This document shows positions 40,687 to 56,415 of a stretch of DNA of 64,000 bases, in pieces (position 1 is the stretch's first letter; every line of letters starts with the position of its first letter). The notes under the pieces were generated by a model. The model did no database searches. It worked only from the letters and a program-made list of their open reading frames with translations, and had not been told where the DNA came from. Source of the stretch: Mycobacterium intracellulare ATCC 13950 (GTDB taxonomy: Bacteria > Actinomycetota > Actinomycetes > Mycobacteriales > Mycobacteriaceae); assembly GCF_000277125.1 (NCBI RefSeq), contig NC_016946.1, positions 3,906,001 through 3,970,000 on the forward strand, read 5' to 3'. The translations under genes were made by a program, and so were the position numbers.

Positions 40687-41178
40687 ATGGCTGCTCTTCA
40701 CTCCGCGGATTCGGCGGACCAACAACATCCCACACGCGGCCGCCACATGGCCCAATTCGCCAGGGCGCACGTGTTCGTCTATGCGCGCTGCCTCGCCACG
40801 GTGGTGCGCGTCGACGGCGAGATCGATGCCGCGAATGCGAGAGACCTCACCGAAGCCATCCGCGGCTTCGCCCGGCTCAAGACCCCGGTGGTCCTCGATT
40901 TGAGCCGACTGCGCTTCCTCAGCGTCGAGGGCTTTCGGGCGCTGCTGTTCGTCAACGACGAGCTCCGTAAAGCCCGCGTGCACTGCAGCGTGGTCACCGG
41001 CAAGGCGATCCGGCCGCTGCTGCGGATCGTGCACGACAACGGGTTGGCGACCACCGACTCGGTACCGGAGGCCTTTCAAACCATCGAAGACATCCTTGCG
41101 GCGCGACGGCGTTTCGTCTCCGAACTCGCCCGCCCGAGACAGCCGCGTAGCCGGGTCCCCCGCAGCGCCGCGTCGTGA
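40687..41178 (+). CDS. STAS-domain protein (anti-sigma factor antagonist type)
   Basis: 163 aa (178 from an in-frame GTG at 40639). The STAS domain covers about residues 25-125: ATVVRVDGEIDAANARDLTEAIRGF, VVLDLSRLRFLSVEGFRALLFV and CSVVTGKAI. The conserved phosphorylatable Ser/Thr sits in the LRFLSVEGF loop. Such proteins free sigma factors from anti-sigma kinases. It lies between two SigF-type promoters, which suggests, but does not prove, that it feeds into SigF control. The C-terminus is basic and disordered. Confidence 0.82.
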   Translation: MAALHSADSADQQHPTRGRHMAQFARAHVFVYARCLATVVRVDGEIDAANARDLTEAIRGFARLKTPVVLDLSRLRFLSVEGFRALLFVNDELRKARVHCSVVTGKAIRPLLRIVHDNGLATTDSVPEAFQTIEDILAARRRFVSELARPRQPRSRVPRSAAS

Positions 41179-41268
41179 CCCCGATGGGGGTTAAAACACC
41201 GCACGGGTTGGCGTTTCGGCTCCGTGCTCGGTTTCGGGCCCAGCGTGACTCGGCAAACACGGATCACC

Positions 41269-41297
41269 TTCATCAAGTGAATGTTTAAGTTATTGAA
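41269..41297. promoter_or_regulatory. Palindromic element upstream of crtE, shared with idi/mmpL
   Basis: 29-bp AT-rich element running from TTCA to TGAA with the core AATGTTTAA; 9 of 14 pairs are symmetric. It matches 53793-53821 at 20 of 29 positions, including the nine-base core and both ends. A MarR gene lies between the two copies. Within it, GTTT followed after 16 bp by TGGTAT (41283-41308) is a second, weaker SigF-like match. Confidence 0.55.
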
Positions 41298-41352
41298 CAA
41301 CGTGGTATCTCCCACCGGGCGGCGCGGGGCGGGGCCTGGCGGCTCGTGCCGT

Positions 41353-41378
41353 GGTTTGCCCGCCTCGTCGGCGGGTAT
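41353..41378 (+). promoter_or_regulatory. SigF-type promoter of the carotenoid operon
   Basis: GGTTT (41353-41357), 15-bp spacer, GGGTAT (41373-41378): exact mycobacterial SigF consensus. A start site near 41385 would give about 60 nt of leader before the crtE ATG. SigF is known to control carotenoid pigment in M. smegmatis, which makes this match convincing. Confidence 0.8.
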
Positions 41379-41446
41379 GACCGCGTGTGCCGGGCCAGCG
41401 CAGGCCCGGCCATTCCCAGCCGTCCGGGAGGGAGCGCTTGGGCACC

Positions 41447-42568
41447 ATGGGAGCTTTGTCGTTTTCGCCCGCGGGCGCATCACCGCCCGTGACGGGCTCC
41501 TCGGGCGGTGACGACTTCGGCGAGTGGCGGTCGGAGGTCCGGCGGAGGGTTTTGGTCGAGGTCGCCGAGTTCGTCGCGCAGCGACGCGCCGCCGACCTGG
41601 ACGGGGCGGGCATCGAAGCGGTCGGCGACATCCTGGCCGACTTCGTCTCCGGCGGTAAATGCCTGCGGTCGACGTTCGTGTACCTGGGGTGGCTGTGCGG
41701 CGCGCCGGCCGACCCCGCGGCGTTGCGGGCCGCGGCGAGCTTTGAGTTGGTGCACGCCTTCGCGCTGCTGCAAGACGACGTCATGGACGGCTCCGACGTG
41801 CGGCGCGGCCGCCCGTCGGCGCACCGGCAATTCGGGCGGTGGCACCGGGAACGCGGATTGCCCGGCGCCTCACGGCGATTCGGCGAGTCCGCGGCCATCC
41901 TGCTCGGAGATCTGTGCCTGATCTGGGCCGAACAAATGCTGCGGGACAGCGGAATCGATCCCCGGCGGCTGCAATTGGCGTGGCCGCGCTACGACGCGAT
42001 GCGCACCGAGCTCGCCGTGGGACAGTTCGCCGACCTGATCAACGACGCGCGGCAGGCGCCCGGGCTGGAATTCGTTCTCGATGTGGCACGGCGCAAATCG
42101 GGCAACTACACCGTGCGCCGACCCCTGGAGATCGGGGCGGCCATGGCCGGCTGCGGCGCTCACACGCTGTGCCAACTGGGCCGCTACGGCCGCGCCGTCG
42201 GCGAGGCGTTTCAGCTCCGCGACGACGTGCTCGGCGTCTTCGGTTCACCCGCGGTAACGGGTAAAGCCAGCGCGATAGACCTGCTCGAGCGCAAGGCAAC
42301 CAGCGTCGTGGTGGCCGCCCACCAGCTGGCCGATCCCGCGACCCGCCGTGAACTCACCGAGCTGGCGAATCGTGAAGCCCTCGGGCGTGACGCGATCGAC
42401 AGGTGGAAGGCGCTGATCATCGGGACCGGGGCCGTGGGGCTGATCGAAGAGATGATCGGCGACCGCGTCGCGTCCGCGCGCGCCCACCTCGGGGACCTGC
42501 CGATCGAGGAGCCCGTTCGCATCGCGCTGGCCGAAATGGCGGCGGCTTGTACGGATCGCGCCGTATGA
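41447..42568 (+). CDS. crtE: Geranylgeranyl diphosphate synthase CrtE
   Basis: 373-aa trans-prenyltransferase that extends FPP or smaller primers to C20 GGPP for carotenoid synthesis. First Asp-rich motif LLQDDVMDGSDVRRG and second motif FQLRDDVLGVFG; GGKCLRST near the start. The ATG at 41447 lies 12 nt after GGGAGGGAG; a TTG three codons upstream is an alternative. It is the first gene of the crt operon, 28 bp before crtI. Confidence 0.93.
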   Translation: MGALSFSPAGASPPVTGSSGGDDFGEWRSEVRRRVLVEVAEFVAQRRAADLDGAGIEAVGDILADFVSGGKCLRSTFVYLGWLCGAPADPAALRAAASFELVHAFALLQDDVMDGSDVRRGRPSAHRQFGRWHRERGLPGASRRFGESAAILLGDLCLIWAEQMLRDSGIDPRRLQLAWPRYDAMRTELAVGQFADLINDARQAPGLEFVLDVARRKSGNYTVRRPLEIGAAMAGCGAHTLCQLGRYGRAVGEAFQLRDDVLGVFGSPAVTGKASAIDLLERKATSVVVAAHQLADPATRRELTELANREALGRDAIDRWKALIIGTGAVGLIEEMIGDRVASARAHLGDLPIEEPVRIALAEMAAACTDRAV

Positions 42569-42596
42569 CCGGTACCGAGTCGGGAGCGCGTTGACC

Positions 42597-44117
42597 ATGC
42601 GGACCATCGACGGACGCACCGATCACGTCGTGGTGGTCGGCGCCGGCCTGGCCGGCCTGTCCGCGGCGCTGCACCTGGCCGGGCGGGGGCGCGCGGTCAC
42701 CGTGGTGGAACGTGAGCCATGGCCGGGCGGGCGGGCCGGGCGCCTCGACATCGACGGGTACCGGATCGACACCGGGCCAACGGTGCTCACGATGCCGGAC
42801 ATCATCGACGAGACCTTCGCGGCCGTCGGCGAGACAAGGTCCAACCGGCTGGAGCTCTCGCCGGTTGATCCCGCCTACCGCGCCGTGTTCGCCGACGGCA
42901 GCGCGCTCGATGTGCACAGTGACGCAGACCGGATGGCCGACGCAATCGCCGACTTCGCCGGTTCCGGGCAGGCGGCGGGCTACCGGCGGCTGCGCACGTG
43001 GCTGACCAGGTTGTACCGCACCGAATTCGACGGGTTCATCGGTGCCAATTTCGATTCCCCGCTCTCGCTGCTCACGCCGCGGCTGGCGCAGCTGACGGCG
43101 ATCGGCGGCTTCCGCAGGTGGGATCGCATGGTCAAGCGGCACATCAGCGATGAGCGGCTGCAGCGGATCTTCACCTTCCAGTCGCTGTACGCCGGGGTGG
43201 CGCCGCGCGACGCCCTGGCGGTCTACGCGGTCATCGCCTACATGGACACCATCGCGGGCGTGGTGTTCCCGCGGGGCGGCGTGCGCGCGCTGCCCGACGC
43301 GCTGGCCGCGGCGGCCACCGACGCCGGCGTCCAATTCCGTTACGGCGCAACCGTTACCGCCCTCGAACAATCCGGCGGCCGGGTCAGGGCCGTACTCACC
43401 GAACAGGCCGGGCACATCTCGTGCGACGCGATCGTGCTGACCACCGAACTGCCCCAGACCTACGCGCTGCTGGGCCGCACACCCCGCCGCGCCGTGCGGT
43501 TGCGGGCCTCCCCGTCGGCGGTGGTGGCGCACCTGGGTTGCCCCGCGGTCGCTCGCGACACGGCCCACCACACCATCCTGTTCGGCGAGGCATGGGATCA
43601 GACCTTCACCGACATCATCCGCGACGGCCGGTTGATGACCGATCCGTCGTTGCTGGTGACCCGCCCGACGGCCGGCGACCCGGCGCTGGCTCCCGAGGGC
43701 CGCGATCTGCTCTACGTCCTGGCCCCCGCGCCGAACCTGGAGCGCGGCACCATCGATTGGTCGCGGGCCGGCGCCGCCTACGCCGAGGGCCTCGTCGCAC
43801 ACGTCGCGGACCGGTTGCTCCCCGGATTGCGGGAGGACGCAGCGGTTCTCGACGTCGTCACACCCGCCGACTGGGCCCGTCAGGGCATGGCGGCCGGCAG
43901 CCCCTTCGCGCTGGCCCACACGTTCGGTCAGACCGGGCCGTTCCGGCCGGCCAACATGGTGCGCGGCATCGACAACGCGGTGCTCGCCGGTTCCTCCACG
44001 GTGCCCGGCGTCGGCGTGCCGACCACCCTGATTTCCGGGCGGCTCGCCGCGGACCGCATCACCGGGGCCGCCACGAGGGCCATCGCCGTCCTCGACACGA
44101 AAGCCGGTTTGCCATGA
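42597..44117 (+). CDS. crtI: Phytoene desaturase CrtI
   Basis: 506-aa FAD-dependent desaturase converting phytoene to lycopene. The Rossmann FAD motif VVVVGAGLAGLSAALHLAGR is near residue 12, with EREPWPGGRAGRL and RIDTGPTVLTMPD. The C-terminal FAD-contact segment AGSSTVPGVGVPTTLISGRLAADRI is typical of CrtI. The stop overlaps the crtB start (ATGA). A TTG two codons upstream is an alternative start. Confidence 0.94.
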   Translation: MRTIDGRTDHVVVVGAGLAGLSAALHLAGRGRAVTVVEREPWPGGRAGRLDIDGYRIDTGPTVLTMPDIIDETFAAVGETRSNRLELSPVDPAYRAVFADGSALDVHSDADRMADAIADFAGSGQAAGYRRLRTWLTRLYRTEFDGFIGANFDSPLSLLTPRLAQLTAIGGFRRWDRMVKRHISDERLQRIFTFQSLYAGVAPRDALAVYAVIAYMDTIAGVVFPRGGVRALPDALAAAATDAGVQFRYGATVTALEQSGGRVRAVLTEQAGHISCDAIVLTTELPQTYALLGRTPRRAVRLRASPSAVVAHLGCPAVARDTAHHTILFGEAWDQTFTDIIRDGRLMTDPSLLVTRPTAGDPALAPEGRDLLYVLAPAPNLERGTIDWSRAGAAYAEGLVAHVADRLLPGLREDAAVLDVVTPADWARQGMAAGSPFALAHTFGQTGPFRPANMVRGIDNAVLAGSSTVPGVGVPTTLISGRLAADRITGAATRAIAVLDTKAGLP

Positions 44118-45067
44118 TACGCAGCGAATTGGCCGCGGCCGGAATCGACGATCCGCGGCTGCGCGAGGGATATCGCCAGTGCCGGGAACTCAATGCCGCC
44201 CATGGCCGCACCTTCTTCCTGGCGACCCGGCTGCTCGCGCCCGACCAACGGCCGCCCGTGCACGCGCTGTACGGCTTCGCCCGCTACGCCGACGACATCC
44301 TCGACGATCTCGATCCGCGGCTGGACCCTTGCAGTCGTGGCAGGCGGCTGCAGCAACTGTCCGAGCGCTTCTTCTCCGACGGCGCCCACCTCGACGATCC
44401 GTTGGTGGCGGCGGTGACTCACACCGCGCGGCGCTACCGGATCAGCGCCGGGCTCTTCGAGGACTTCCTGAACTCGATGCGGATGGATCTCACGGTCACC
44501 GACTATCCCGACCGCGAAGCGCTCAACCTCTACATGCGGGGCTCCGCGGAAGCCATTGGGCTGCAGGTACTCCCGATCCTGGGAACCGTGACGCCGATGG
44601 AGGAGGCCGCGCCGTATGCCGCGGCGCTGGGCCGGGCCTTCCAGCTCACCAACTTCCTGCGCGATGTCGACGAAGATCTGGTGCGCGGCCGGGTCTACCT
44701 GCCGACCGACGAACTCGCGGCCGACGGCGTGGATCGTGAGCTGTTGACGTGGTGTCATGCGCATCGCCGCACCGACCCCCGGGTGCGCCGCGCCCTGGCC
44801 GCGCAGCACGAAATCGCGCGTCAGACTTACCGATTCGCCGCGGCGGGGATCGCCACGCTGGCGCGTCGCTCACGGCCGTGCGTGGCAACCGCGGCCGCCC
44901 TGTACGCCGAGATCCTGGACTGCATCGAAAGAAGCGAGTTCGCGGTGTTCGACCACCGGGCCACCGTGGGCCGGGCTCGACGGCTTCGGGTCGCCGGTGC
45001 GGGACTGATACGGTCGTGGCGGGCGCGAAATGGCGAGCGGGACGATCTCAACTCGGGGGCCGCATGA
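44114..45067 (+). CDS. crtB: Phytoene synthase CrtB
   Basis: 317-aa squalene/phytoene synthase joining two GGPP to phytoene. Asp-rich motifs ARYADDILDD (about residue 57) and NFLRDVDEDLVRGRVYLP (about residue 180) are both intact. The long open frame upstream is antisense-like read-through of crtI; the ATG overlapping the crtI stop is the real start. The stop overlaps crtYc (ATGA). Confidence 0.94.
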   Translation: MIRSELAAAGIDDPRLREGYRQCRELNAAHGRTFFLATRLLAPDQRPPVHALYGFARYADDILDDLDPRLDPCSRGRRLQQLSERFFSDGAHLDDPLVAAVTHTARRYRISAGLFEDFLNSMRMDLTVTDYPDREALNLYMRGSAEAIGLQVLPILGTVTPMEEAAPYAAALGRAFQLTNFLRDVDEDLVRGRVYLPTDELAADGVDRELLTWCHAHRRTDPRVRRALAAQHEIARQTYRFAAAGIATLARRSRPCVATAAALYAEILDCIERSEFAVFDHRATVGRARRLRVAGAGLIRSWRARNGERDDLNSGAA

Positions 45068-45387
45068 GCGATCGGTGGCAATACCTTCTGGTCCTGGCCG
45101 CATGCCTGCTGATCACGGCGCCGCTGGAGGCGTTGGGCCCCGGCGTCTACCGACAGTGGCGACGCTTCCTCAAGGCGGTGCTGCCGGTCGCCGCGGTGTT
45201 CCTGATCTGGGATGAGATCGCCGTCGCCGCGCGCGTGTGGACCTACGACGGCGCGTACCTCAGCGGCCTGAGCATCCCGTTTCGGGTGCCGATCGAAGAG
45301 GTGCTGTTCTTTCTCGTCATTCCGGCGTGCGCGCTGCTGACCTACAACGCCGTGGGCGCCATCCTGGCAAGGGTGCACCGGCGGTGA
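45064..45387 (+). CDS. crtYc: Lycopene cyclase subunit CrtYc
   Basis: 107-aa membrane protein of three helices, half of the heterodimeric actinobacterial lycopene cyclase that forms beta-ionone rings. The lycopene cyclase domain carries the FRVPIEEVLFF signature with the conserved Glu pair. Overlaps crtB (ATGA) and crtYd (GTGA) by 4 bp each, as expected for obligate partners. Confidence 0.92.
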   Translation: MSDRWQYLLVLAACLLITAPLEALGPGVYRQWRRFLKAVLPVAAVFLIWDEIAVAARVWTYDGAYLSGLSIPFRVPIEEVLFFLVIPACALLTYNAVGAILARVHRR

Positions 45388-45695
45388 GCGGTCTCGGCTA
45401 CACCCTGCCCGCCGTGCTGGCGGTATTGGCCGTCTGCGCACTGGAATTGGCGGTGCTGCGCACCGGGCTGTTTCGCCGGCCGGCCTACTGGCTGTCGATG
45501 GTGATCGTCCTGGGATTCCAGATCCCGGTCGACGGATGGCTGACAAAGCTCAGCTCGCCCATCGTCAGCTACGACGATCGGCAGCTGAGCGGGCTGCGCT
45601 TCCCGTTCGACATTCCGGTCGAAGACTTTCTGTTCGGTTTCGCGTTGGTCACCGCGGTGCTGCTGCTGTGGGAACGGCAACATGCGCGTCAGTGA
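45384..45695 (+). CDS. crtYd: Lycopene cyclase subunit CrtYd
   Basis: 103-aa three-helix membrane partner of CrtYc with the matching signature FDIPVEDFLFGF. The GTG overlaps the crtYc stop. The 3' end overlaps the next gene by 14 bp. Together CrtYc and CrtYd convert lycopene to beta-carotene. Confidence 0.92.
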   Translation: MSGLGYTLPAVLAVLAVCALELAVLRTGLFRRPAYWLSMVIVLGFQIPVDGWLTKLSSPIVSYDDRQLSGLRFPFDIPVEDFLFGFALVTAVLLLWERQHARQ

Positions 45696-46407
45696 TGCGG
45701 GCCCCGCCCCCGCCGACCTGGCAGCCGCGTTCGACGCGGGTGCCGCGGCCTACGACCGGCTGGTCGGCGCCAGCCCGGGCTACCACGCGCAACTGCTGCT
45801 GTCGGCGCGCCGGATGCGGATTCCGGCCCGCGGCAAGGGCTTACGGTTGCTCGACGCCGGCTGCGGGACGGGCGCCTCAACGGCCGCACTGCTCGCCGTC
45901 GCGCCGCACGCCGACATCGTCGCCGTGGACGCGTCGCGCGGAATGCTCGACGCGGCGCGCGCGAAGGACTGGCCCGCCACGGTGCGCTTCGTCCACACCC
46001 CCGTCGAACAATTGGCGGAGCACGGGATCACCGGGCCCTTCGACGCCATCCTGGCCGCGTACCTGATCCGCAACGTCGCCGACCGCGACGACCAACTGCG
46101 CAAGTTCCGCACGCTGTTGCGGCCCGGCGGCACCCTGGCCGTGCACGAGTATTCGGTGCGCGACTCCCGGGCCGCCACCCGCATCTGGCACGCGGTCTGC
46201 TGGGGCATCATCATCCCGTCCGGGTGGTGGCGCACCCGCGACACCGCGCTCTATCGCTACCTGTGGCGTAGCGTGCTCGCATTCGACGGCGCCGCGCGGT
46301 TCCGGACCCGCCTCGCCGACGCCGGCTTCACCGCCGTGCACAGCGAGACGATGCCCGGCTGGGAAGCCAACATCGTGCACACCTTCCTGGCGGACGCGCC
46401 GTCATGA
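45682..46407 (+). CDS. Class I SAM-dependent methyltransferase of the carotenoid operon
   Basis: 241 aa: motif I LRLLDAGCGTGASTAAL, IVAVDASRGMLDAAR and ILAAYLIRNVADRD, the last resembling UbiE/MenG quinone methyltransferases. C-terminal hydrophobic stretch around HAVCWGIIIPSGWW. Actinobacterial isorenieratene clusters contain a similar methyltransferase (crtT-like), whose reaction is not firmly known to me. Coupled to crtU by ATGA. Confidence 0.82.
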   Translation: MRVSDAGPAPADLAAAFDAGAAAYDRLVGASPGYHAQLLLSARRMRIPARGKGLRLLDAGCGTGASTAALLAVAPHADIVAVDASRGMLDAARAKDWPATVRFVHTPVEQLAEHGITGPFDAILAAYLIRNVADRDDQLRKFRTLLRPGGTLAVHEYSVRDSRAATRIWHAVCWGIIIPSGWWRTRDTALYRYLWRSVLAFDGAARFRTRLADAGFTAVHSETMPGWEANIVHTFLADAPS

Positions 46408-47936
46408 CCGCGCACGCCGACCGTCGCCGCCGAACATTGCCCGCACCAACGGGATTGCCGGACGCCGGCGCGCTGCCGTCGCGGCCCCGGGTCGCCGTCG
46501 TCGGCGGCGGGATCGCCGGACTGGCCGCCGCCACCGGACTCGCCGAGCGCGGCGTCGCGGTCGAGGTCATCGAACGCGAACCCTACCTCGGCGGTCGGGT
46601 CGGCGGCTGGACCGAGCGCGACGGCGGCGTCGACCTCGCGATGAACCGCGGCTTCCACGCGTTCTTCCGGCAGTACTACAACCTGCGCGCCCTGCTGGCC
46701 CGGATCGACCCGCGATTGCGGATGCTGGCTCCCGTCGAGGATTACCCGCTCATCGACGGCGCGGGGCGGCGCGACAGCTTCCGCGGGCTGCCGCGCACCC
46801 CGCCGTGGAACGCCGTCGCCTTCGCCGCGCGCAGCCCGACGTTCCGCCTTCGCGACTTCACCCGCATCGATGCCCGCGCCGCCGCGCCGCTGGCCGCGGT
46901 GTCGGTGCCGGGCACCTACGAGCGCCTCGACCACATCGACGCCGCGGCGTTCCTCGAAAACATCCGATTCCCCGAGGCCGCACGGCATCTGGCCTTCGAG
47001 GTGTTCTCCCGCAGCTTCTTCGCCGACCCCGCCAAGCTGTCCGCGGCCGAGTTGGCGACCATGTTCCACATCTACTTCCTGGGATCGGCCGAGGGCCTGA
47101 TCTTCGACGTCCCGTGCGCGAACTACGACGGCGCGCTGTGGCAGCCGTTGTGCGGCTACCTCGAGGGGCGCGGGGTGCGGTTTCGGCTCGGCACCGCCGC
47201 CCTGGGCATCGAGGGGGATTCGGCGGGGCGCTTTCGCGTGCACACCGATTCCGGCGAGCGGCTCGACGTCGACGCGGTGGTGCTGGCCACCGACGTCGCG
47301 GGTCTGCAGCGGATCGTGGCGGGATCGAGCGGCCTTGGCACCGATGACTGGCGGGCCCGGATCTCGCGGCTGCGCACCGCGCCGCCGTTCGCCGTGCATC
47401 GGTTCTGGCTCGATCGCCCCGTCTCGGCGCGGCGCCCGGCGTTTCTGGGCACGGCCGGGCACAAGCCGCTGGACAACATCAGCGTGCTGGAACGCTACGA
47501 ACGCGAAGCCCGCGCGTGGGCGTGCGCGCATCAGGGTTCGGTGGTCGAATTGCATTCCTACGCATTGGATTCGGCGCCGTCGCGCGCCGCCGCGCTCCGC
47601 CGGCTGCACGCGGTGTACCCGGAAACGGCGGCGGCACAGATCGTTCACGAGAGGCTGCTGCACCGCAGCGACTGCCCGCTTTTCGCGCCGGGCACCTATA
47701 CGGACCGCCCCGCGGTGATCACCCCGACACCGGGCCTGGTGTTGGCCGGCGACGCCATCCGGATCGACCTGCCGGTGGCGCTGATGGAGCGCGCCGCCAC
47801 CACCGGGTGGTGCGCCGCGAACCAACTGCTGAAACGCTGGGGACTGGCCGGACACCCGTTGTCCACGGTGCCCACCCGGGGCCGCTCACCACTGCTGCGA
47901 TGGCTTGCCACCCGCGAGGGAGCCGCCCGGCGATGA
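46404..47936 (+). CDS. crtU: Beta-carotene desaturase/methyltransferase CrtU (isorenieratene synthase)
   Basis: 510-aa flavoprotein that aromatises beta-ionone rings with a methyl shift, yielding isorenieratene (leprotene), a carotenoid known from mycobacteria. FAD motif VAVVGGGIAGLAAATGLAER near residue 30, then YLGGRVGGW and the family mark NRGFHAFFRQYYNLRALL. The C-terminal FAD contact is GLVLAGDAIRIDLPVALMERAATTG. Assignment is by these motifs plus operon context. Confidence 0.86.
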   Translation: MTAHADRRRRTLPAPTGLPDAGALPSRPRVAVVGGGIAGLAAATGLAERGVAVEVIEREPYLGGRVGGWTERDGGVDLAMNRGFHAFFRQYYNLRALLARIDPRLRMLAPVEDYPLIDGAGRRDSFRGLPRTPPWNAVAFAARSPTFRLRDFTRIDARAAAPLAAVSVPGTYERLDHIDAAAFLENIRFPEAARHLAFEVFSRSFFADPAKLSAAELATMFHIYFLGSAEGLIFDVPCANYDGALWQPLCGYLEGRGVRFRLGTAALGIEGDSAGRFRVHTDSGERLDVDAVVLATDVAGLQRIVAGSSGLGTDDWRARISRLRTAPPFAVHRFWLDRPVSARRPAFLGTAGHKPLDNISVLERYEREARAWACAHQGSVVELHSYALDSAPSRAAALRRLHAVYPETAAAQIVHERLLHRSDCPLFAPGTYTDRPAVITPTPGLVLAGDAIRIDLPVALMERAATTGWCAANQLLKRWGLAGHPLSTVPTRGRSPLLRWLATREGAARR

Positions 47937-48937
47937 AGATCCGCGACCAGCTGCAAAGCCTGCGGACGTGGCCCAAAGATTGGCCCCTGCAGGTGATCCC
48001 ACGTGTGTCGTGGGCCGATCAGCGCCCGACCTATCGCGACGCACAACCCGCCGTCATCGACGCCGCGCTGCGCCGCTCACAGCACCGCCCCACCGGCAAC
48101 TGGTACGCGTTCGCCGCCAGCCGGCAGGTGGTCGGCGGGCGGCCGTTCGGCGCGCTCGTCGCCGGCGTCGAGGTCGTCGCCTGGCGCGACGAGCAGCACC
48201 GCCTGTGCGTGGGACCGCGCAGTTGCCCGCACCTGGGGGCCGACCTCGCCACCGGCACGGTGCACCGCGGCACGCTGGTGTGCCGGTGGCACGGGCTGAC
48301 CCTGGACGGGCGCGCCCGCGAATTCGGTTGGAGCCCGTTGCCCGGTCACGACGACGGCACCCTGGTCTGGGTGCGCCTCGATGCGGTCGGACGGGAGCCG
48401 CCGCTGGAGCTTCCGGTGATTCCGGACCGGCCGACCGGCGACACCCTGGCCGCAGTCGCCCGCACGGAGGGCGTCTGCGAGCCGATCGACGTCATCGCCA
48501 ACCGGCTCGATCCGTGGCATGGCGCCTGGTTTCACCCGTACTCGTTCACCCGCCTCGAGGTGCTCACCACACCGACCGAACACGCCGACCGCTTCTTGGT
48601 GGCCGTGACGTTCCGGATGGGACGCCTGGGGGTGCCGGTCGTCGCGGAGTTCAGCTGCCCGGAGGCCCGCACCATCGTCATGCGCATCGTGGACGGGGAG
48701 GGGGCAGGCAGCGTCGTCGAAACCCACGCCACCCCAATCGGTTTGGGCCCCGATGGCCGCCCCCGCACTGCCGTCCTGGAAGCCACCATCGCGCACTCGG
48801 GGCGGCCCGGGTTCAAGCGGGCATCCCGGGTGGCGCCGCTGATCACGCCGCTCATGCGCTTCGCGTCCAGCAGGCTCTGGCGCGACGACCTCGCCTACGC
48901 CGAGCGTCGTTACCAGGTACGCGCCGCACGCGGATGA
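47933..48937 (+). CDS. Rieske 2Fe-2S protein of the carotenoid operon (DUF5914-like)
   Basis: 334 aa. The Rieske cluster motif is SCPHLGADLATG...CRWHGLTLDG (near residues 98-125). The C-terminal part (VCEPIDVIANRLDPWHGAWFHPYSF ... VPVVAEFSC) carries the His-rich DPWHGAWFHP segment reminiscent of an oxygenase iron site. It may hydroxylate or desaturate carotenoid end groups, or supply electrons to CrtU; this is inference. Starts in the crtU stop (ATGA) and ends the coupled operon. Confidence 0.82.
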   Translation: MKIRDQLQSLRTWPKDWPLQVIPRVSWADQRPTYRDAQPAVIDAALRRSQHRPTGNWYAFAASRQVVGGRPFGALVAGVEVVAWRDEQHRLCVGPRSCPHLGADLATGTVHRGTLVCRWHGLTLDGRAREFGWSPLPGHDDGTLVWVRLDAVGREPPLELPVIPDRPTGDTLAAVARTEGVCEPIDVIANRLDPWHGAWFHPYSFTRLEVLTTPTEHADRFLVAVTFRMGRLGVPVVAEFSCPEARTIVMRIVDGEGAGSVVETHATPIGLGPDGRPRTAVLEATIAHSGRPGFKRASRVAPLITPLMRFASSRLWRDDLAYAERRYQVRAARG

Positions 48938-49028
48938 CCCACAGCGGTGCGCATGCAAGAATCGTCGGATCAGTTCCGCACCCGAGTCCGCCTCGGCCGT
49001 CACGAGGCACTACGCAGTCGCGGTCGCA

Positions 49029-49388
49029 GTGACCGTCGGCGCGCACCTTGCGTACCTGCTCTACGTGCCCAGCGGCGGCTTTCTCGCATTGCGCTGGCCG
49101 CGCACCATGGCGCTGCACGTGCCGGCGGTGGGTTGGGGTATCGCCGTCGTCACGCTCAGACTCCCCTGCCCGTTGACCATCCTGGAATCGTGGGCCCGCC
49201 GCAGCGCGGGGATGAATCCGCTGCCGACCGCGGGCTTCATCGAGCGTTATGTCGCAGGTCATTTCGTGCCGACCGGGCGCATTGGTGCCGCACAGGCGTT
49301 GGCGTTCAGCGCGGCCGGCGTCTCATGGTGCGTCCTGGCGCGGCGGATCCTTCATCCCCGGAGGCGGCCCGTCGGCGCGAACGGCTGA
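49029..49388 (+). CDS. DUF2784 membrane protein, start uncertain
   Basis: 119 aa from GTG 49029: LAYLLYVPSGGFLALRWPRT, LHVPAVGWGIAVVTLRLPCPLT and GFIERYVAGHFVP are typical of DUF2784, with three to four helices. The family usually starts several residues earlier. Here the expected spot reads GTC-ACG-AGG-CAC-TAC, so a GTG start may have mutated to GTC. No ribosome site is seen. Its 3' end overlaps a convergent small gene by 66 bp. Confidence 0.7.
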   Translation: MTVGAHLAYLLYVPSGGFLALRWPRTMALHVPAVGWGIAVVTLRLPCPLTILESWARRSAGMNPLPTAGFIERYVAGHFVPTGRIGAAQALAFSAAGVSWCVLARRILHPRRRPVGANG

Positions 49389-49544
49389 GCGCCGCCACAG
49401 CAGCCATACGGTGCCCAGCACCAGCGCCGCGAACACGATCGCGGCCGGCCACAGGGCCAGTTCGGCAAGCCACACACGCCGTTGCAGGCGCAGCACTTTG
49501 CGCTGGGCGCCCCGCAGGCGTTGCGACGTCTCGTGCACGGTCAT
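49323..49544 (-). CDS. Small single-pass membrane protein, SigF-type promoter
   Basis: 73 aa: basic amphipathic start (SQRLRGAQRKVLRLQRRVW), one membrane helix (ALWPAAIVFAALVLGTVWLLW, residues about 31-51) and a short Pro-rich tail. Not recognised. It could be dismissed as a shadow of the convergent DUF2784 gene, but a consensus SigF promoter ends 11 bp before its ATG, so it would be a nearly leaderless transcript. A GTG two codons later is an alternative start. Confidence 0.6.
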   Translation of the reverse strand: MTVHETSQRLRGAQRKVLRLQRRVWLAELALWPAAIVFAALVLGTVWLLWRRSAVRADGPPPGMKDPPRQDAP

Positions 49545-49554
49545 CCGCCATCAC

Positions 49555-49580
49555 ATACCCGAGGAGCACCTGTTCAAACC
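49555..49580 (-). promoter_or_regulatory. SigF-type promoter of the small membrane protein gene
   Basis: Minus strand GGTTT (49580-49576), 15-bp spacer, GGGTAT (49560-49555), exact consensus. Predicted start near 49548, only about 4 nt before the ATG at 49544. Confidence 0.72.
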
Positions 49581-49697
49581 GCAGGACGCCGCGGTCTGTA
49601 GCCACAAGCATTTGACTATTGAATACATGAAACGTCTCCGCGATTCGGCGCCCTGCTCAGCGGGAATGCCATAACGGAATACGGGGGAAGGAACACC

Positions 49698-50129
49698 ATG
49701 AGCTTCGACAACACCGGCGAGGGCGCCACGCAGGCGGTGGGAAAAGTCACCGAGGCGCTGGAAACCATCGAGCGCGCCCGGGGACACCTGTACTCCTTCC
49801 ACCAACTCACCGGCCATGCCGACCTCCAACTCGACGAGGCGGTGTCGCGGTTGCACGAACTCGGGCACGCCGGTCTGGCCCAACACATCAGCCGCGAGCT
49901 GATCGGGCGCAACGTCCTCCCGGGGCGCTGGAGCTTTCAGGTGGTCGAAGACTACGACGACGGCTACTACCGCTGCTTCAAGGAGATCGAACAGCTGGTG
50001 CGAATGCGACTCGCCGGCGGACAGCGCCACCGCTACGAGATGGCGATGAAAGAGGAGCGGCGCACCGCGGGTCACCCCGCCCACACCGCGTCGCCCAACG
50101 ACGAATCGACGAATGGTGAAAACCTATGA
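49698..50129 (+). CDS. Conserved hypothetical protein, helical, His-rich
   Basis: 143 aa, soluble and mostly helical (TQAVGKVTEALETIERARGHLYSFHQLTGHADLQLDEAV). Clustered His residues (HLYSFHQLTGH, HELGHAGLAQH) hint at metal or heme binding, but no named family is recognised. Strong ribosome site GGGGGAAGGA before the ATG. It is the first of three coupled small genes, with its stop in ATGA of the DUF2945 gene. Such sets are often general-stress genes; no SigF consensus was found on this strand here. Confidence 0.75.
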   Translation: MSFDNTGEGATQAVGKVTEALETIERARGHLYSFHQLTGHADLQLDEAVSRLHELGHAGLAQHISRELIGRNVLPGRWSFQVVEDYDDGYYRCFKEIEQLVRMRLAGGQRHRYEMAMKEERRTAGHPAHTASPNDESTNGENL

Positions 50130-50310
50130 GCAACAGAGAATTCGACAAGGGCGACGCGGTCGAGTGGCAAAGCCACGGCACGACGGTCCGCGGTACCGTC
50201 GAGGGCGAGATCACCTCGGATACCGAGGCCGCCGGGCGCACGGTGCGCGCCTCCGCGGACCAGCCGCAGATGCGGTGCACAAGCCGGACGCGCTGCGCCG
50301 CGCGGACTGA
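50126..50310 (+). pseudogene. DUF2945 (TUDOR-like) gene with internal deletion and frameshift
   Basis: The first 45 or so codons are normal for DUF2945: FDKGDAVEWQSHGTTVRGTV and ITSDTEAAGRTVRASADQPQ. The usual ending (VHKPDALRRAD) follows at 50277-50310 but in another frame. About a dozen middle codons are missing at the join near 50268-50272. Read without shifting, the frame runs on to 50395 and collides with the DUF3140 gene. Probably non-functional, unless the junction is a sequencing error. Confidence 0.7.
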
Positions 50311-50330
50311 TTCGTGTCGAGGGTCATCCG

Positions 50331-50663
50331 ATGACAGAGGACAAGGACACCACCTGGGCCCGCTTCCACGACGCGGTGAACATGACCGCCGGTGAGCTGG
50401 AAAAGTGGCTCGCCACAGAAGAGTCGAACGCCGTGGGACAAAAGCAGGGCGAGAGCGAGTCGACCGGTCATGCCAGCGGGCGCCGCATCGTCGAGATACT
50501 CAGGGCGAAGCGAAAAGACCTCACCGAGGCCGACTACGCGCACATGCGCAAGGTTGTCGGGTACGCCAAGCGCCATCTGGCGCAACGTCCACAGGGCAAC
50601 ATCGACGAGAGCCCCCGGCGCTACTCGTTGATGAACTGGGGTCACGACCCCGCGAAGTCGTGA
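50331..50663 (+). CDS. DUF3140 protein
   Basis: 110 aa: WARFHDAVNMTAGELEKWLATEES, then GRRIVEILRAKRKDLTEADYAHMRKVVGYAKRHLAQRP and a RYSLMNWGHDP ending, all typical of DUF3140. Frequently found beside DUF2945, as here. Small, basic, soluble; may bind DNA, but nothing is established. Starts 20 bp after the broken DUF2945 gene. Confidence 0.82.
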   Translation: MTEDKDTTWARFHDAVNMTAGELEKWLATEESNAVGQKQGESESTGHASGRRIVEILRAKRKDLTEADYAHMRKVVGYAKRHLAQRPQGNIDESPRRYSLMNWGHDPAKS

Positions 50664-50798
50664 CACCGCCTCGACCCACCGGCTAAGCCACGATGATCCG
50701 GTAGGGGTGCCGTAGGCTGATGGCCACCGACCGGACCGGGGGCCGCGCGCAGCGGTCCCGAACGCTGGTCGGCCTATCTTGCAAGAGGATGCGGGTAA

Positions 50799-51365
50799 GT
50801 GACCAAGCGCGGCGCCGCTGACCGGCGAATGGACCGAGCCGAACTCGAGAAGTTGATGTCGGCGGACATGCGCGCGATCACGGCGCAGTCCGACCGCATC
50901 GGCCGGCACTTCGCGCGGCAAAACGAGGTCAGCGGCACCGACTTCCACGCCCTGCTGCACATCATGGTCGCCGAGACTGCCGGAACGCCGTTGACGGCGG
51001 CGCAATTGCGGAGGCGCATGGACGTATCGCCCGCCGCCATCACCTATCTCGTGGACCGCATGATCGACGCAGGGCACCTCCGGCGCGAACCGGACCCGCA
51101 GGACCGCCGCAAGACGCTGCTGCGCTACGAGAAACCTGGAATGGCGCTGGCGCGCTCATTTTTCACGCCGTTGGGCGCCGAACTGCATACCGCCCTCGCC
51201 GAGCTTCCCGACCGCGACTTGGCGGCCGCTCATCGGGTTTTCACGGCGATGATCGAGGCGATGTCCGCCTTCGAATCCACGCTCACCGCACCGGCTCCCA
51301 AACGGCCCGCCACCCCCGAGGGGAAGCGCACCCCGGCGAAAGGCCGCGGCGGCGCCGTGCGCTGA
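50799..51365 (+). CDS. MarR family transcriptional regulator
   Basis: 188 aa winged-helix protein: LLHIMVAETAGTPLTAAQLRRRMDVSPAAITYLVDRMIDAGHLRREPDPQDRRKTLLRYEK (about residues 48-108), with a basic Pro/Lys tail. GTG start. It is convergent with the glycosyltransferase-idi pair. Its position between the two copies of the 29-bp element (41269 and 53793) makes it the best local candidate to bind them; this is inference. Confidence 0.87.
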   Translation: MTKRGAADRRMDRAELEKLMSADMRAITAQSDRIGRHFARQNEVSGTDFHALLHIMVAETAGTPLTAAQLRRRMDVSPAAITYLVDRMIDAGHLRREPDPQDRRKTLLRYEKPGMALARSFFTPLGAELHTALAELPDRDLAAAHRVFTAMIEAMSAFESTLTAPAPKRPATPEGKRTPAKGRGGAVR

Positions 51366-51380
51366 GACGCACCGGGCCGG

Positions 51381-52631
51381 TTAGTGCACCGGGCGCTCGA
51401 CGGTGCATCCCAACAGCCGCTGCTCGATGAGATCCGCTCCGCGGGCCACACCTCCGGTGGCCGCGAACCCGGCGGCCACCCGTCGCGCACCGTCCGCCAT
51501 CGTCATTGCCTGACGCACCTTCGCTCTCAGCCGCGCCGGTGTGAGTTTTTTCGCCCTCAGCCGGGTGCCGCAGTGAGCGACCTCCACCCGCCGGGCGACT
51601 TCGGCCTGATCGCGGGCGAAGGGAACGACGCAGACCGGTACACCCCGGTCGAGAGCCTTCAGTGTGGTCCCCATTCCGCCATGCGTGATCGCGCAGGCGG
51701 CCTTCTCCAGGACGGCGGTGTGCGGCACGAAACGGCATACCGTCGCGTTGTCGGGGCGCGGCAAATCGGTGGGTATGCCCGCCGGAAACGTCGCCACGAC
51801 GTGCACGTCCTCATCGGCCAGCGCGTGCAAGGCGATTCGCCCCAGCGGTTCGTCGGCCTGCCGCAACGACGACGTGTTCACCAGCACGACGGGCCGGTCG
51901 AGGTCATCGATCCAACCCGCTGTCACGGTTTCGGTCGGCTCGAATACGCACGCGCCGATGTGGTGCAACACATCGGGCCATCCCGGATGCCGATACTCGA
52001 AAGGCTCGCCTCCGACGGCCAGCAGCAGCGGCGCGCGGCGCATGAAGCCGTCCACCGACGTTACCGGTGGCACCGCCAGCTGCACGCGAATTGCGTTGAC
52101 GCGCGGCAGCATTGGCCGGTCGAACAGGTACCTCACGATCGGGCGTACCGTGGCGTCCCGCAGGTCACCGACGACGCCCGGCAGAGGCCGCAGCCCGGGA
52201 CCGAACGGCGGCACGCCCCGGGAGCGCAGGTACGGGGTGAACGGCGAAAACAGCGACCACGGAATCTCCCCGGCGTCTGCGGCCGACAAGGCGCCCCAAC
52301 AATTCGCGTCCACGATGACCGCATCCGGCCGAACCTCGGCCACGGCCCGACGCAGGTCGTCGACCTCGAACACCGCTCGCCGGCACAGCACGTCGACCGA
52401 CGAGGTCAAGACCTCCAAGGCGTTTCGCGCCCGCCAGTCCTTCCCGGCAATCGCCTCGATTCGCGGATCGACGGGCGCGGCGTGCACGCCAACCGAGCGC
52501 ATCGTCGAGACGCCGCCCGCCATGGTGCGCACATGAACGTCGTGACCCCGCCGGGCGAGTTCGGCCAGCAGGGCGCCGACCGGCAGCAGATGTCCGAGTG
52601 CCGGCGAGCCGTACGCCAGGATGACAGCCAC
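51381..52631 (-). CDS. GT1-family (UGT-like) glycosyltransferase
   Basis: 416-aa GT-B enzyme: N-terminal acceptor domain VILAYGSPALGHLLPVGALLAELARRGHDV; C-terminal donor motif CAITHGGMGTTLKALDRGVPVCVVPFARDQ. The family includes antibiotic, glycolipid and carotenoid (CrtX) glucosyltransferases. The GTG at 52631 is 11 bp after the idi stop, and upstream codons lack a start. Co-transcription with an isoprenoid gene next to a carotenoid operon suggests a carotenoid or other terpenoid acceptor; inferred. Confidence 0.84.
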   Translation of the reverse strand: MAVILAYGSPALGHLLPVGALLAELARRGHDVHVRTMAGGVSTMRSVGVHAAPVDPRIEAIAGKDWRARNALEVLTSSVDVLCRRAVFEVDDLRRAVAEVRPDAVIVDANCWGALSAADAGEIPWSLFSPFTPYLRSRGVPPFGPGLRPLPGVVGDLRDATVRPIVRYLFDRPMLPRVNAIRVQLAVPPVTSVDGFMRRAPLLLAVGGEPFEYRHPGWPDVLHHIGACVFEPTETVTAGWIDDLDRPVVLVNTSSLRQADEPLGRIALHALADEDVHVVATFPAGIPTDLPRPDNATVCRFVPHTAVLEKAACAITHGGMGTTLKALDRGVPVCVVPFARDQAEVARRVEVAHCGTRLRAKKLTPARLRAKVRQAMTMADGARRVAAGFAATGGVARGADLIEQRLLGCTVERPVH

Positions 52632-52642
52632 GTCGCGCGAAG

Positions 52643-53689
52643 CTACGTCTCGCGGACGAGGTCGACGTCGCGCAGCGCCGCGAGGTTTGCCGCACCGCAG
52701 CCGTGCAGGCATACCCGAAGCTCATCGATGAACGGCTGCAGCCAATCCACCACCGCCGCAGTGGATTCGATCGCGGCCGGCAGCAGCGGCCGGGCCACCG
52801 CCACGACGTCGGCCCCCAGGGCGATCGCCTTGGCCGCGTCCATCCCGGTTCGAATGCCACCGGACGCCACCAGCGGGATCTCCGGCAGCGCCTCGCGCAC
52901 CTCCACGACCGCACGCGCGGTGGGGATTCCCCAGTCGGCCAACTCCGGATGGCGCAGTTCGCCGTAACGCACGAACTGTTCGACCCGCGACCACGACGTG
53001 CCGCCGGCGCCCGCCACGTCGATTCCGGCAACCGGAAGCGTGCCGTCGGCCCCAAGGAGTTCGGCCACCGCGGCGCCGCCGATCCCGTGGCCGACCTCCT
53101 TGAGCAACACGGGGTAGCCGAGGGCGTCGGCCGCTTCGCGCAGCCGGTCCACCGAGCCGGAGAAGTCGGTGTCGCCGTTGTGTTGCATCGCTTCCTGCAA
53201 CGGATTGGTATGCACGGCAAGCGCGTCGGCGCCCACCCGATCGAGGGCCTTGGCCAGGTCCGGCACGGCCGCCTTCGCCAGCTGGGATAGCCCAATGTTG
53301 CCGAACAGCAACGCATCTGGGGCGACGTCGCGAACCGTGAAGCTGTCCGCGGCGCAGTCCCCCAGCGCGCTGTCGAGCATGATGCGCTGCGAGCCGAGCA
53401 TCATGCCGACGCCGAGCTGTTGGGCGGCGGCCGCCAGATTGCGGTTGATCGTCCCGGACAACTCTGCGCCCCCGGTCATCGCGCCGATGAGGATCGGAGA
53501 GCGCAGGTTGGCACCGAAAAACGTGGTGGACATGTCGATGTCGCCCAGGCTGGTCTGCGTGAGCGCGTTGTAGGGCAGGTGATACCGGTCCAGGCCGGTG
53601 CTGACCCCGGCATAACCGACCGGCTCGCTCAGGCACACGTCGATGTGCCGCCGCTTGCGATTCTTCATCGCGCCACGGTCAGCGGTCAT
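52643..53689 (-). CDS. fni: Type II isopentenyl-diphosphate delta-isomerase
   Basis: 348-aa FMN- and NADPH-dependent Idi-2 that interconverts IPP and DMAPP to prime prenyl chains. Marks: [10 protein letters not shown] at the start, [44 protein letters not shown] and [20 protein letters not shown]. Starts at ATG 53689 (ATG 53668 also possible). Divergent from the MmpL gene over the shared 29-bp element; supplies precursor for crtE. Confidence 0.92.
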
Positions 53690-53792
53690 CGCCGGCAAGC
53701 CTCGCGTCCATCAATGTCTCCGCATCGCGTCCATAATGTTCATAGTGCCCCCTTTCGCGCAGCGCTATGCCGACTCCGTGGTGCTGCGTCGT

Positions 53793-53821
53793 TTCAGTTG
53801 ATTAATGTTTAACTGACTGAA
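53793..53821. promoter_or_regulatory. Palindromic element between idi and mmpL, shared with crtE
   Basis: 29-bp element from TTCA to TGAA with the core AATGTTTAA; 10 of 14 pairs are symmetric (outer arms TTCAGT/ACTGAA, inner TTAA/TTAA). It matches 41269-41297 at 20 of 29 positions. It ends 6 bp before the first mmpL start codon, where a bound repressor would block the transcript. Confidence 0.6.
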
Positions 53822-53827
53822 AGGGTT

Positions 53828-55939
53828 GTGTTCGTGGTGTGGGAGCCCTTGGCCACCGCTGTGACGGGTCGACGTTCGTGGCTGCTCGCGCTGGTCGCGG
53901 CCCTGCTGGGGGTCGGTTTCATGGTTCTCATCGGCGAGAACGCGGCGGCGGGCCAGTCACCGAAATCGCTGCCCGACGACTCCGCGTCGGCCGAGGTGGA
54001 CGCGCTGTCGCGGCAGTTCCCCGGCGGCGACCGCGCCCCGGTGATTGTCGTGGTCAGCCGGACCGACGGCGCGGTGCTCAGCCCCTCGGACGTTTCGGCC
54101 GCACGCGCGGCCCGCGATCGGGCCCAGGCCGCCGCGCCGCCCGGCGGGGATGGCGCGGCGCCCGCGCTGCCGTCGACCGACGGGAAGGCCGCCTCGGGCA
54201 TCGTGCCGATCAGCGGCGGCCTGTCGGGGCTTGACCTCGACCGCACGGTCACGGCGCTGCGCACGGCCGCGGCGAGCGGACTGCCCACGGATCTGCAGGT
54301 GCACGTCACGGGCGGGCCGGCGTTCGGCGCCGACATCGCCAGCGCCTTCACCAACGCCAACATCACCTTGCTCGCCGTGACGACGTCGGTGGTGGCGCTG
54401 CTGCTGATCGCCACGTACCGGTCCCCGGTGCTGTGGCTGGTCCCCTTGCTCGTCGTCGGATTCGCCGACCGGGTCGCCGCCGCGGTCGGTACGGCGGTGG
54501 CGTCGCTGACCGGGCTGAGCTTCGACGGCGCCACCTCGGGCATCACCAGCGTGCTGGTGTTCGGGGCGGGCACCAATTACGCGCTGTTGTTGATCTCCCG
54601 GTATCGCCAAGAGCTACGGCGCCATTCCGGGCACCGCGTCGCGCTGCGGCACGCCGTGCGCCGCGCGGGGCCGGCCATCGTTGCCAGCAATGCCACCGTG
54701 GTGCTGGCGCTGCTCACGCTGCTGTTCGCGGCCACTCCGAGCACACGCAGTCTGGGCGCGCTGGCGGCGTGCGGCCTCGTGGTCGCCGCGGTGTCGGTGC
54801 TGGTCATCCTGCCGCCGATGCTGGCCGTGTGCGGCCGCCGATTGTTCTGGCCGTTCATCCCGCACGCCGACGACGCCGAGGACCGGGATTCCGGTGCCTG
54901 GCGGCGCATCGCGGAATCGGTCGCACGCCGTCCCGCGCTGGTTGCGGTGGTAGCGATCGCGGTGCTGGCCGCCCTGGGCACGGGCTTGTGGGGGACCCGG
55001 ATCGGGCTGTCGCAGACCGAGCAGTTCCGCGTGCGCGCGGATTCGGTGTCCGGTTACACCGTGGTGGCCGAACACTTCCCGGCCGGCCTGGCCAACCCGA
55101 CGCTGGTTGTCGCGCCCACCGCCCACGCGTCGTCGGTGCGGCAGGCGATCGGGGCCACGCCCGGCGTCGTCTCGGTGACCGAGTCCGGCCGCTCGGAAAC
55201 GGGGCTGACGAAGTGGTCGGTGGTGATCGACGCACCGCCGTCGTCCGACCGGGCGTTCGGCATCGTTGCCGCACTGCGGGATTCGACCCGGGCCGCCGAC
55301 CCCGGCGCGCTGGTGGGCGGCGCCGACGCGCAGGCCCTCGACGTCCGGGACGCGGCCGCGCATGACCGCGTGCTGCTGATCCCGGCGATCCTGGCCGTCA
55401 TCCTGGTCGTCCTGTATGCGTTGCTGCGATCCGCCCTCGCGCCGCCGACCCTGCTGGCCGCGACGATTCTGGGTGCCCTGGCCGCGTTGGGCATGGGCGG
55501 CTGGGCGAGCATCCATATCTTCGGTTTTCCGGCACTGGACAACACCACCCCGCTGTTCGCCTTCCTGTTCTTGGCCGCCCTCGGCGTGGACTACACCATC
55601 TTTCTGGTCACCCGCGCCCGCGAGGAGGCCGCACGGCACGGCGCGCGCGATGGGATGGTGCGCGCGGTGTCGGCGACCGGAGGCGTAATCACCAGCGCGG
55701 GAATCGTTTTGGCCGCCGTGTTCTGCGTGCTCGGGGTGCTGCCGTTGATCGTCCTGACGCAGTTGGGGATCATCGTCGGCCTGGGCATCCTGCTCGACAC
55801 CTTCGTGGTGCGCACCCTGGTCATCCCGGCGTTGTTCGCCCTCATCGGCGACCGAATCTGGTGGCCCACCAGCCCCGCCAATACCGAACCCGTTGAACAA
55901 CAAGCGGATCAGGCCCAACGCGAACGGAGCACGCCGTGA
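53828..55939 (+). CDS. MmpL/RND family transporter
   Basis: 703-aa RND exporter with two MMPL halves, each a helix, a periplasmic domain and a five-helix bundle. First bundle: TNANITLLAVTTSVVALLLIA ... VFGAGTNYALLLISRYRQEL. Second: LFLAALGVDYTIFLVTRAREE with the proton-relay type Asp-Tyr. In-frame GTGs at 53828, 53834 and 53837; 53834 has the best ribosome-site spacing. Shorter than MmpL4/5 and lacking the coiled-coil domain. Its stop overlaps tspO (GTGA). Substrate unknown; context suggests a lipid or glycosylated terpenoid. Confidence 0.88.
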   Translation: MFVVWEPLATAVTGRRSWLLALVAALLGVGFMVLIGENAAAGQSPKSLPDDSASAEVDALSRQFPGGDRAPVIVVVSRTDGAVLSPSDVSAARAARDRAQAAAPPGGDGAAPALPSTDGKAASGIVPISGGLSGLDLDRTVTALRTAAASGLPTDLQVHVTGGPAFGADIASAFTNANITLLAVTTSVVALLLIATYRSPVLWLVPLLVVGFADRVAAAVGTAVASLTGLSFDGATSGITSVLVFGAGTNYALLLISRYRQELRRHSGHRVALRHAVRRAGPAIVASNATVVLALLTLLFAATPSTRSLGALAACGLVVAAVSVLVILPPMLAVCGRRLFWPFIPHADDAEDRDSGAWRRIAESVARRPALVAVVAIAVLAALGTGLWGTRIGLSQTEQFRVRADSVSGYTVVAEHFPAGLANPTLVVAPTAHASSVRQAIGATPGVVSVTESGRSETGLTKWSVVIDAPPSSDRAFGIVAALRDSTRAADPGALVGGADAQALDVRDAAAHDRVLLIPAILAVILVVLYALLRSALAPPTLLAATILGALAALGMGGWASIHIFGFPALDNTTPLFAFLFLAALGVDYTIFLVTRAREEAARHGARDGMVRAVSATGGVITSAGIVLAAVFCVLGVLPLIVLTQLGIIVGLGILLDTFVVRTLVIPALFALIGDRIWWPTSPANTEPVEQQADQAQRERSTP

Positions 55940-56415
55940 ACAAATCGATCTTAGGTGCGACGGCCCTGGGCGTCGCCGCGGCCGCCGCCGCCGGCAGCGT
56001 CGCCAGCGCCAACGCCGCCTCGCCGTGGTACGCGCGGCTTCGCAAGCCCGCGTACCAGCCGCCGCGCGCCGCCTTCCCCGTCGCGTGGACCACGCTCTAC
56101 GCGGACATCGCGGTCACGTCGGCGGTGGCCATCGACCGGTTTCGCGCCACCGGGCGCCATGACCAGGCGCGCAGCTACGCCGCTGCCCTGGTAGTGAATC
56201 TGCTCCTCAACGCCGGGTGGAGCTGGCTCTTCTTTCGGTACCACAAGCTCGGTGCGGCCGCGGTCGGTGCCGCGGCGCTGACGGCCAGCAGCGCCGACCT
56301 GGTGAGGCGCACCGCGCAAGCCGGCCCGCGGGGCGGGCCGGCGCTACTGCCCTACCCGATGTGGTGCGGCTTCGCGACCGTCCTGTCCACCCACATCTGG
56401 CGGCTCAACCGTTAG
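55936..56415 (+). CDS. tspO: TspO/MBR family protein
   Basis: 159-aa five-helix membrane protein: WYARLRKPAYQPPRAAFPVAWTTLYADIAVTSA and LNAGWSWLFFRYHKLGAAAVGA are the family hallmarks. TspO binds porphyrins and, in Rhodobacter, tunes carotenoid and photosynthesis gene expression in response to light and oxygen. The GTG overlaps the mmpL stop, and the photolyase gene follows 10 bp later. Confidence 0.92.
   Translation: MNKSILGATALGVAAAAAAGSVASANAASPWYARLRKPAYQPPRAAFPVAWTTLYADIAVTSAVAIDRFRATGRHDQARSYAAALVVNLLLNAGWSWLFFRYHKLGAAAVGAAALTASSADLVRRTAQAGPRGGPALLPYPMWCGFATVLSTHIWRLNR

Follow-up and report, generated by a model that had tools for sequence, protein, structure and literature searches.

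A 64,000-nucleotide stretch of the Mycobacterium intracellulare ATCC 13950 genome (positions 3,906,001 to 3,970,000 of contig NC_016946.1), referred to here as the window, contains two similar 29-bp sites, one upstream of the carotenoid gene crtE and one between fni (idi) and mmpL. Comparative genomics indicates that both are very probably operators of CrtR1, a MarR-family repressor that would control crtE, fni, and mmpL-tspO-phr. In the first-pass annotation of this DNA, the two sites were taken to link the pigment operon to the idi-glycosyltransferase and mmpL-tspO-phr units through a common regulator, and the comparison with related genomes supports that link.

Operator 1 (TTCATCAAGTGAATGTTTAAGTTATTGAA) and operator 2 (TTCAGTTGATTAATGTTTAACTGACTGAA) agree at 20 of 29 positions, as counted by eye, and have in common the ends TTCA and TGAA and the core AATGTTTAA. 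The coordinates, equal length, common ends and core, and level of agreement given in the first-pass annotation are all borne out by the sequence. Its description of the sites as AT-rich also holds: the GC contents of sites 1 and 2 are 24% and 28%, compared with 69% for the window, and 0.003% and 0.02% of the 29-mers of the window, respectively, are as AT-rich. The partial symmetry noted at the time can be resolved into two 13-bp boxes per site, each with the pattern TTMA-N5-TKAA, separated by 3 bp (Table 1). The centres of the boxes are 16 bp apart, and this offset suggests that two dimers could bind side by side. Site 1 ends 149 nt upstream of the likely crtE ATG (41447). Site 2 is located approximately 95 nt from the start of the fni open reading frame (ORF; 53698, minus strand) and 12 nt upstream of the likely mmpL start (GTG 53834).

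The motif is unique to the two sites in the 5,402,402-base genome, which the first-pass annotation had suggested scanning. The pattern TTNA-N7-AATGTTTAA-N5-TNAA matches the two sites alone, and its reversed control has no matches. The looser symmetric pattern TTMANNNNNTKAAYNNTTMANNNNNTKAA also matches the two sites alone when zero or one mismatch is allowed; with two or three mismatches it is close to the control level (14 matches counting strands, four of them from the two sites, versus eight for the control). When the genomes of 24 mycobacteria were scanned allowing at most one mismatch, matches were found in 17 of the 18 genomes that encode CrtR and in one of the six that do not, and the reversed control gave none in any of them.

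The site is conserved upstream of crtE and mmpL in related mycobacteria. A scoring matrix built exclusively from 20 distinct sites upstream of mmpL was scanned over 40 loci comprising 780,182 bases and produced 104 merged matches above 10 bits, compared with a mean of 2.7 unmerged matches for ten column-permuted matrices. The matrix assigns 62.4 bits to operator 2. It also finds a site in all 31 crtE upstream regions examined, 101–168 nt before the aligned crtE start, with scores of 12.7–47.7; the lowest belong to two loci read as M. ostraviense and M. innocens, followed by the window with 21.1 bits. Conservation in relatives, which had been named as a check on the original proposal, is thus seen in the orthologous regions. 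A second set of 79 named loci from 110 relatives includes several M. colombiense loci among the nearest ones, and does not include M. kansasii or M. marinum. Scored with a symmetric matrix at a threshold of at least 25 bits, sites are present in 51 of 52 crtE, 48 of 49 mmpL, and 28 of 32 crtR2 upstream regions, counts that are not independent of the training set because many of the species overlap with it. Locus L058 was left out owing to a contig break.

The presence of the operator follows that of CrtR. The test set consisted of 80 further upstream regions of mmpL homologues, none of which had been used in training, 52 with and 28 without an adjacent CrtR gene. A full site of at least 26.9 bits occurs in 41 of the 52 regions with CrtR and in none of the 28 without; the remaining 11 score at most 11.5 bits, and the best of the 28 scores 5.1. 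Tandem boxes are present in 35 of the 52 and a single box in all 52, as opposed to none of the 28 in either case. The background frequency of the single box is 112 in 3971 pieces of sequence, true sites included. The loci L050 and L052 represent natural losses and are cleaner cases than the 28 site-less homologues: their mmpL genes are 76–77% identical, tspO and phr are kept, the genome contains no close CrtR, and the operator is missing. Some flanking letters in L050 are still in common with L041, which has both CrtR2 and the operator. Locus L059 has neither CrtR nor a site; the stretch of it that was examined contained no tspO or phr.

The candidate regulator was already pointed out in the first-pass annotation as the MarR gene at 50799, and the distribution of the box argues in its favour. 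Its product is a MarR-type winged-helix protein (PF12802, MarR_2, E-value 1.4e-13; PF01047, 2e-10), and a search of the PDB identified general MarR relatives only, the best with an E-value of 7e-10. The gene lies beside carotenoid and/or mmpL genes in the window and in relatives, and is located between the pigment unit and the fni/mmpL unit. CrtR homologues from 148 genomes of the genus form two groups. CrtR1 genes are positioned at the end of the crt run, as in the window, and CrtR2 genes are mostly divergent from mmpL or crtE. In the phylogenetic tree, the CrtR1 clade comprises 37 rows, is supported at 100/100, and is nested among CrtR2 lineages; two rows called CrtR1 by identity grouped with CrtR2. 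The genome of M. intracellulare ATCC 13950 encodes one close CrtR (a 99% self match), with the next match among those listed at 34%, and the homologue search found no CrtR2 in it. CrtR1 is therefore most probably the protein that acts at both operators.

The recognition-helix stretch AAITYLV is common to CrtR1 and CrtR2, whereas seven outgroup homologues from motif-less loci have Vtal-type recognition helices instead. The pairing of a CrtR homologue with mmpL is present in 18 of 20 outgroup loci, and 17 of the 20 contain no operator (best scores of -4.0 bits or lower). The outgroup pairs in loci L290–L305 seem to use a different inverted repeat that is less AT-rich; one instance is AATCTCGACTGTCGAGA of L300.

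The alignment of 65 mmpL promoters indicates that operator 2 overlaps the likely -35 element. Position 9 is G in 98% of the sequences, and its mirror position 23 is T in 55% and A in 34%; TTGATT is kept in the left half of the site and not in the mirror half. Downstream, position 30 is A in 97%, position 31 is A in 75%, and position 35 is T in 92% of the promoters, which corresponds to a likely -10 element AAnnnT. This element lies approximately 7 nt upstream of the start codon in many mmpL promoters, and the mmpL mRNA is likely to be leaderless, with GTG 53834 as the start codon. The retention of TTGATT in one half and the spacing to AAnnnT fit a promoter whose -35 to -10 region is the operator, where a bound repressor would block the polymerase. 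The sites upstream of crtE have A at positions 8 and 9 in 94% of cases each, and the -10 and -35 elements of crtE could not be fixed from the alignment of its upstream regions. Many species (L063–L099) carry a conserved block resembling ACTGGCG, placed 12–22 nt ahead of the crtE operator; in the window (41240–41268) this block is weak.

We propose that, when no inducer is present, CrtR1 would block RNA polymerase at both operators. Operator 2 would span the region from -35 to -10 of the leaderless mmpL-tspO-phr promoter and face fni on the opposite strand, and operator 1 would lie over the promoter region of crtE, ahead of a long leader. An inducer tied to light or isoprenoid metabolism may cause the release of CrtR1, and the result would be a joint rise in carotenoid synthesis, isoprenoid supply by Fni, MmpL transport, TspO, and photolyase. 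CrtR2, present in most relatives, would have been lost here, with CrtR1 serving both operators.

Several observations weigh against this mechanism. The crtE site of the window is among the weakest of its kind, third lowest of 31, and one permuted matrix reached 27.7 bits somewhere in the 780 kb. Only one box is retained in 11 of the 52 CrtR-adjacent mmpL upstream regions. Paralogy is probable for many of the 28 homologues without a site, 22 of which fall in clades of 10, 9, and 3, and for two of the 28 a CrtR is encoded elsewhere in the genome. In the scan of 24 genomes, G011 has CrtR and no pattern match, and G002 has a one-mismatch match and no close CrtR. Among the named loci, just 35 of 65 fni upstream regions reach 25 bits, and a site directly upstream of crtR1 occurs in one of 79, so that the self-repression published for CrtR has no counterpart there; a site upstream of the regulator's own gene is found in described CrtR examples and is not treated here as defining. 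Reports on the ligand of C. glutamicum CrtR conflict, with inhibition by geranylgeranyl diphosphate (GGPP) described in one study (PMC7432914) and not reproduced by others (PMC6739363). Among the openly licensed PMC papers searched, neither an operator of a mycobacterial CrtR nor binding data for such a protein turned up.

A chance similarity of the two sites was considered and is ruled out by their uniqueness in the genome, the matrix scan against permuted controls, and the co-occurrence with CrtR. It is also conceivable that the mmpL site once served CrtR2 and has outlived it, with CrtR1 now acting at crtE only. CrtR2 normally adjoins mmpL or crtE and is absent from this genome, and in G129 a decayed CrtR2 is all that remains. 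However, no CrtR2 was found in G046, G131, and G048 either, and these genomes, like that of M. intracellulare, keep strong mmpL sites of 44–51 bits (CrtR2-less loci with CrtR1 in the genome: L034, L035, and L036 at 44–51 bits, the window at 50 bits in the same comparison). The sites have disappeared from the loci of CrtR-less genomes (L050 and L052), and the two repressors have their recognition-helix stretch in common. We therefore regard such a relic as very unlikely.

The AT-richness of the sites, exceptional for this genome, could point to a different regulator or to a general AT-binding protein such as Lsr2, particularly as the binding of CrtR is predicted from sequence. This is hardly to be expected of boxes that are sequence-specific and that track CrtR in 52 of 52 cases as opposed to 0 of 28, with a pattern that has no reversed-control match in 24 genomes. 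The sites are inverted repeats, and the crtE leader is long and of roughly constant length, features that might be expected of RNA hairpins acting as attenuators or leader elements rather than of protein operators. The mmpL site, however, stops 12 nt short of the likely start codon and contains the likely -35 element, and is thus probably untranscribed in the mmpL direction, which makes a role in RNA the least probable of these alternatives, with almost no weight in our assessment. Control of both sites by CrtR1 accounts best for the evidence.

Table 1. Operators, promoter elements, and genes discussed in the text (positions within the window)
Feature	Position	Strand	Details
Operator 1 (crtE)	41269..41297		box TTCATCAAGTGAA 41269-41281, TGT, box TTAAGTTATTGAA 41285-41297
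crtE, polyprenyl synthetase	41447..42568	+	PF00348 2.2e-44; first gene after operator 1; ATG 41447 preceded by GGGAGG, start by eye
crtI, crtB, two lycopene cyclase genes	42591..45681	+	Amino_oxidase, SQS_PSY, Lycopene_cyc Pfam matches
UbiE-type methyltransferase, HpnE-like FAD oxidoreductase, unknown ORF, DUF2784	45682..49388	+	Pfam, NCBIfam; remainder of pigment gene run
Decayed third operator	49602..49632		upstream of ORF at 49698; 2.8 bits, third best 31-mer in window
crtR1, MarR family, 188 aa, proposed binder	50799..51365	+	Pfam MarR_2
Glycosyltransferase downstream of fni	51381..52712	-	EryCIII-like_C 1.1e-16
fni (idi), type 2 isopentenyl-diphosphate isomerase	52643..53698	-	TIGR02151 339 bits, cut-off 281.3
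Operator 2 (between fni and mmpL)	53793..53821		box TTCAGTTGATTAA 53793-53805, TGT, box TTAACTGACTGAA 53809-53821
Likely -35 TTGATT of mmpL promoter, inside operator 2	53798..53803	+	inferred from 65 aligned promoters
Likely -10 AAGGGT (AAnnnT in relatives), 17 bp after -35	53821..53826	+	inferred
mmpL (mmpL2 of M. kansasii by gene order)	53834..55939	+	PF03176 4.9e-97 on ORF from 53828; start codon by comparison
tspO	55936..56415	+	PF03073 1.9e-32
phr, DNA photolyase	56426..57754	+	PF03441 2.0e-78, PF00875 1.2e-41

The HpnE match of the FAD oxidoreductase in the pigment gene run is below the NCBIfam cut-off. The decayed third site precedes an unnamed 143-residue ORF (49698–50129) with no Pfam match, which is closely spaced with a TUDOR-domain ORF, a DUF3140 gene, and then crtR1. 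Six of the 12 orthologous upstream regions of this ORF that were examined score at least 23 bits, with some of the loci being in the training set; partial orthologues in L066 and L073 were left out. The decayed site, four genes upstream of crtR1, may be a trace of crtR1 self-regulation. A STAS-domain gene at 40639–41178, directly upstream of crtE, has no operator in this window; in six loci (L079, L082, L085, L089, L091, and L092) the operator is located upstream of a STAS gene that adjoins a SOUL gene. In locus L311 of G097 (a genome read as M. bohemicum), fni, the initial portion of mmpL, and the intervening operator are positioned far from crtR, and an N-terminally short mmpL directly follows crtR; we interpret this as a rearrangement in which the operator moved together with its neighbours.

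The operator is also found in some relatives upstream of genes encoding SOUL haem-binding, second MmpL, second TspO, STAS, and fasciclin proteins, and these wider targets suggest a photo-oxidative stress regulon. The operator was identified upstream of three fasciclin genes (L312, L321 in G134, and L313 in G058), with scores of 33–44 bits and 65–80 nt before the start; it was not found at 11 other fasciclin loci examined. No operator is present at the eight fasciclin loci of four genomes read as the M. kansasii complex and M. simiae, and the light induction of mpk83 and mpk70 is therefore probably indirect. As a tentative extension that we consider possible but doubtful, CrtR could govern, as master repressor, a wider mycobacterial response to photo-oxidative stress, a regulon organized around porphyrin and isoprenoid damage and extending beyond pigment. 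The inducer would then be a porphyrin product excited by light, with TspO, SOUL, and MmpL binding or exporting it, and in this lineage the targets of the lost CrtR2 would have passed to CrtR1 by way of an operator that both proteins recognize. Pigment formation induced by light is a classic mycobacterial trait. With the operator defined, CrtR control of the photolyase locus becomes testable and the CrtR regulon can be predicted from sequence in many species; the locus would also be a natural example of a conserved operator passing from one repressor paralogue to another.

The system resembles that of M. kansasii, in which, according to a 2023 report, a MarR-type crtR gene lies beside crt genes and fni, and crtR mutants show derepression of crtE, mmpL1, and fni; exposure to light for 20 min induces 14 genes, phrB-tspO-mmpL2 among them by 27–32 fold (PMC9861118). 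The available text gives no operator and leaves open whether CrtR acts beyond carotenoid genes, including at the photolyase locus. Unlike in that account, in M. intracellulare a single intergenic operator, adjoining crtR, is common to fni and mmpL-tspO-phr. Loci read as M. innocens, M. ostraviense, M. attenuatum, and M. simiae have an mmpL site of 20–33 bits with one intact box, and we therefore predict direct CrtR control of phrB-tspO-mmpL2. Repression of crtE and fni by CrtR is already published (PMC9861118); relative to the accessible part of that work, the tandem-box CrtR operator and the link of photolyase, TspO, and MmpL to the carotenoid genes are new.

CrtR of Corynebacterium glutamicum, as described in PMC5401885, is a MarR-type protein that represses crt genes and an mmpL gene, and its binding requires TTAA near the crtE promoter. 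An oligonucleotide listed there contains TTAAAAATATTAA, which we read as an exact TTMA-N5-TKAA box. The C. glutamicum motif is 15–19 bp long with a 52-bp footprint, and its authors found no inverted repeats, whereas the mycobacterial sites consist of two tandem boxes; the TTAA-centred motif upstream of crtE, present in 31 of 31 crtE upstream regions with that of the window among them, is longer than that of C. glutamicum. The regulator gene is divergent from crtE in C. glutamicum and is not so here. Photolyase mRNA of C. glutamicum is little altered by light. In other bacteria, light control of carotenoid genes is exerted by LitR/CarH (as described in PMC6739363), a role like the one proposed here for CrtR1. 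LitR/CarH regulators are MerR-type and B12-dependent, whereas profile searches of the 50799 protein identified MarR-type domains only, with no MerR or B12-binding domain, and place the candidate regulator of M. intracellulare in the MarR family.

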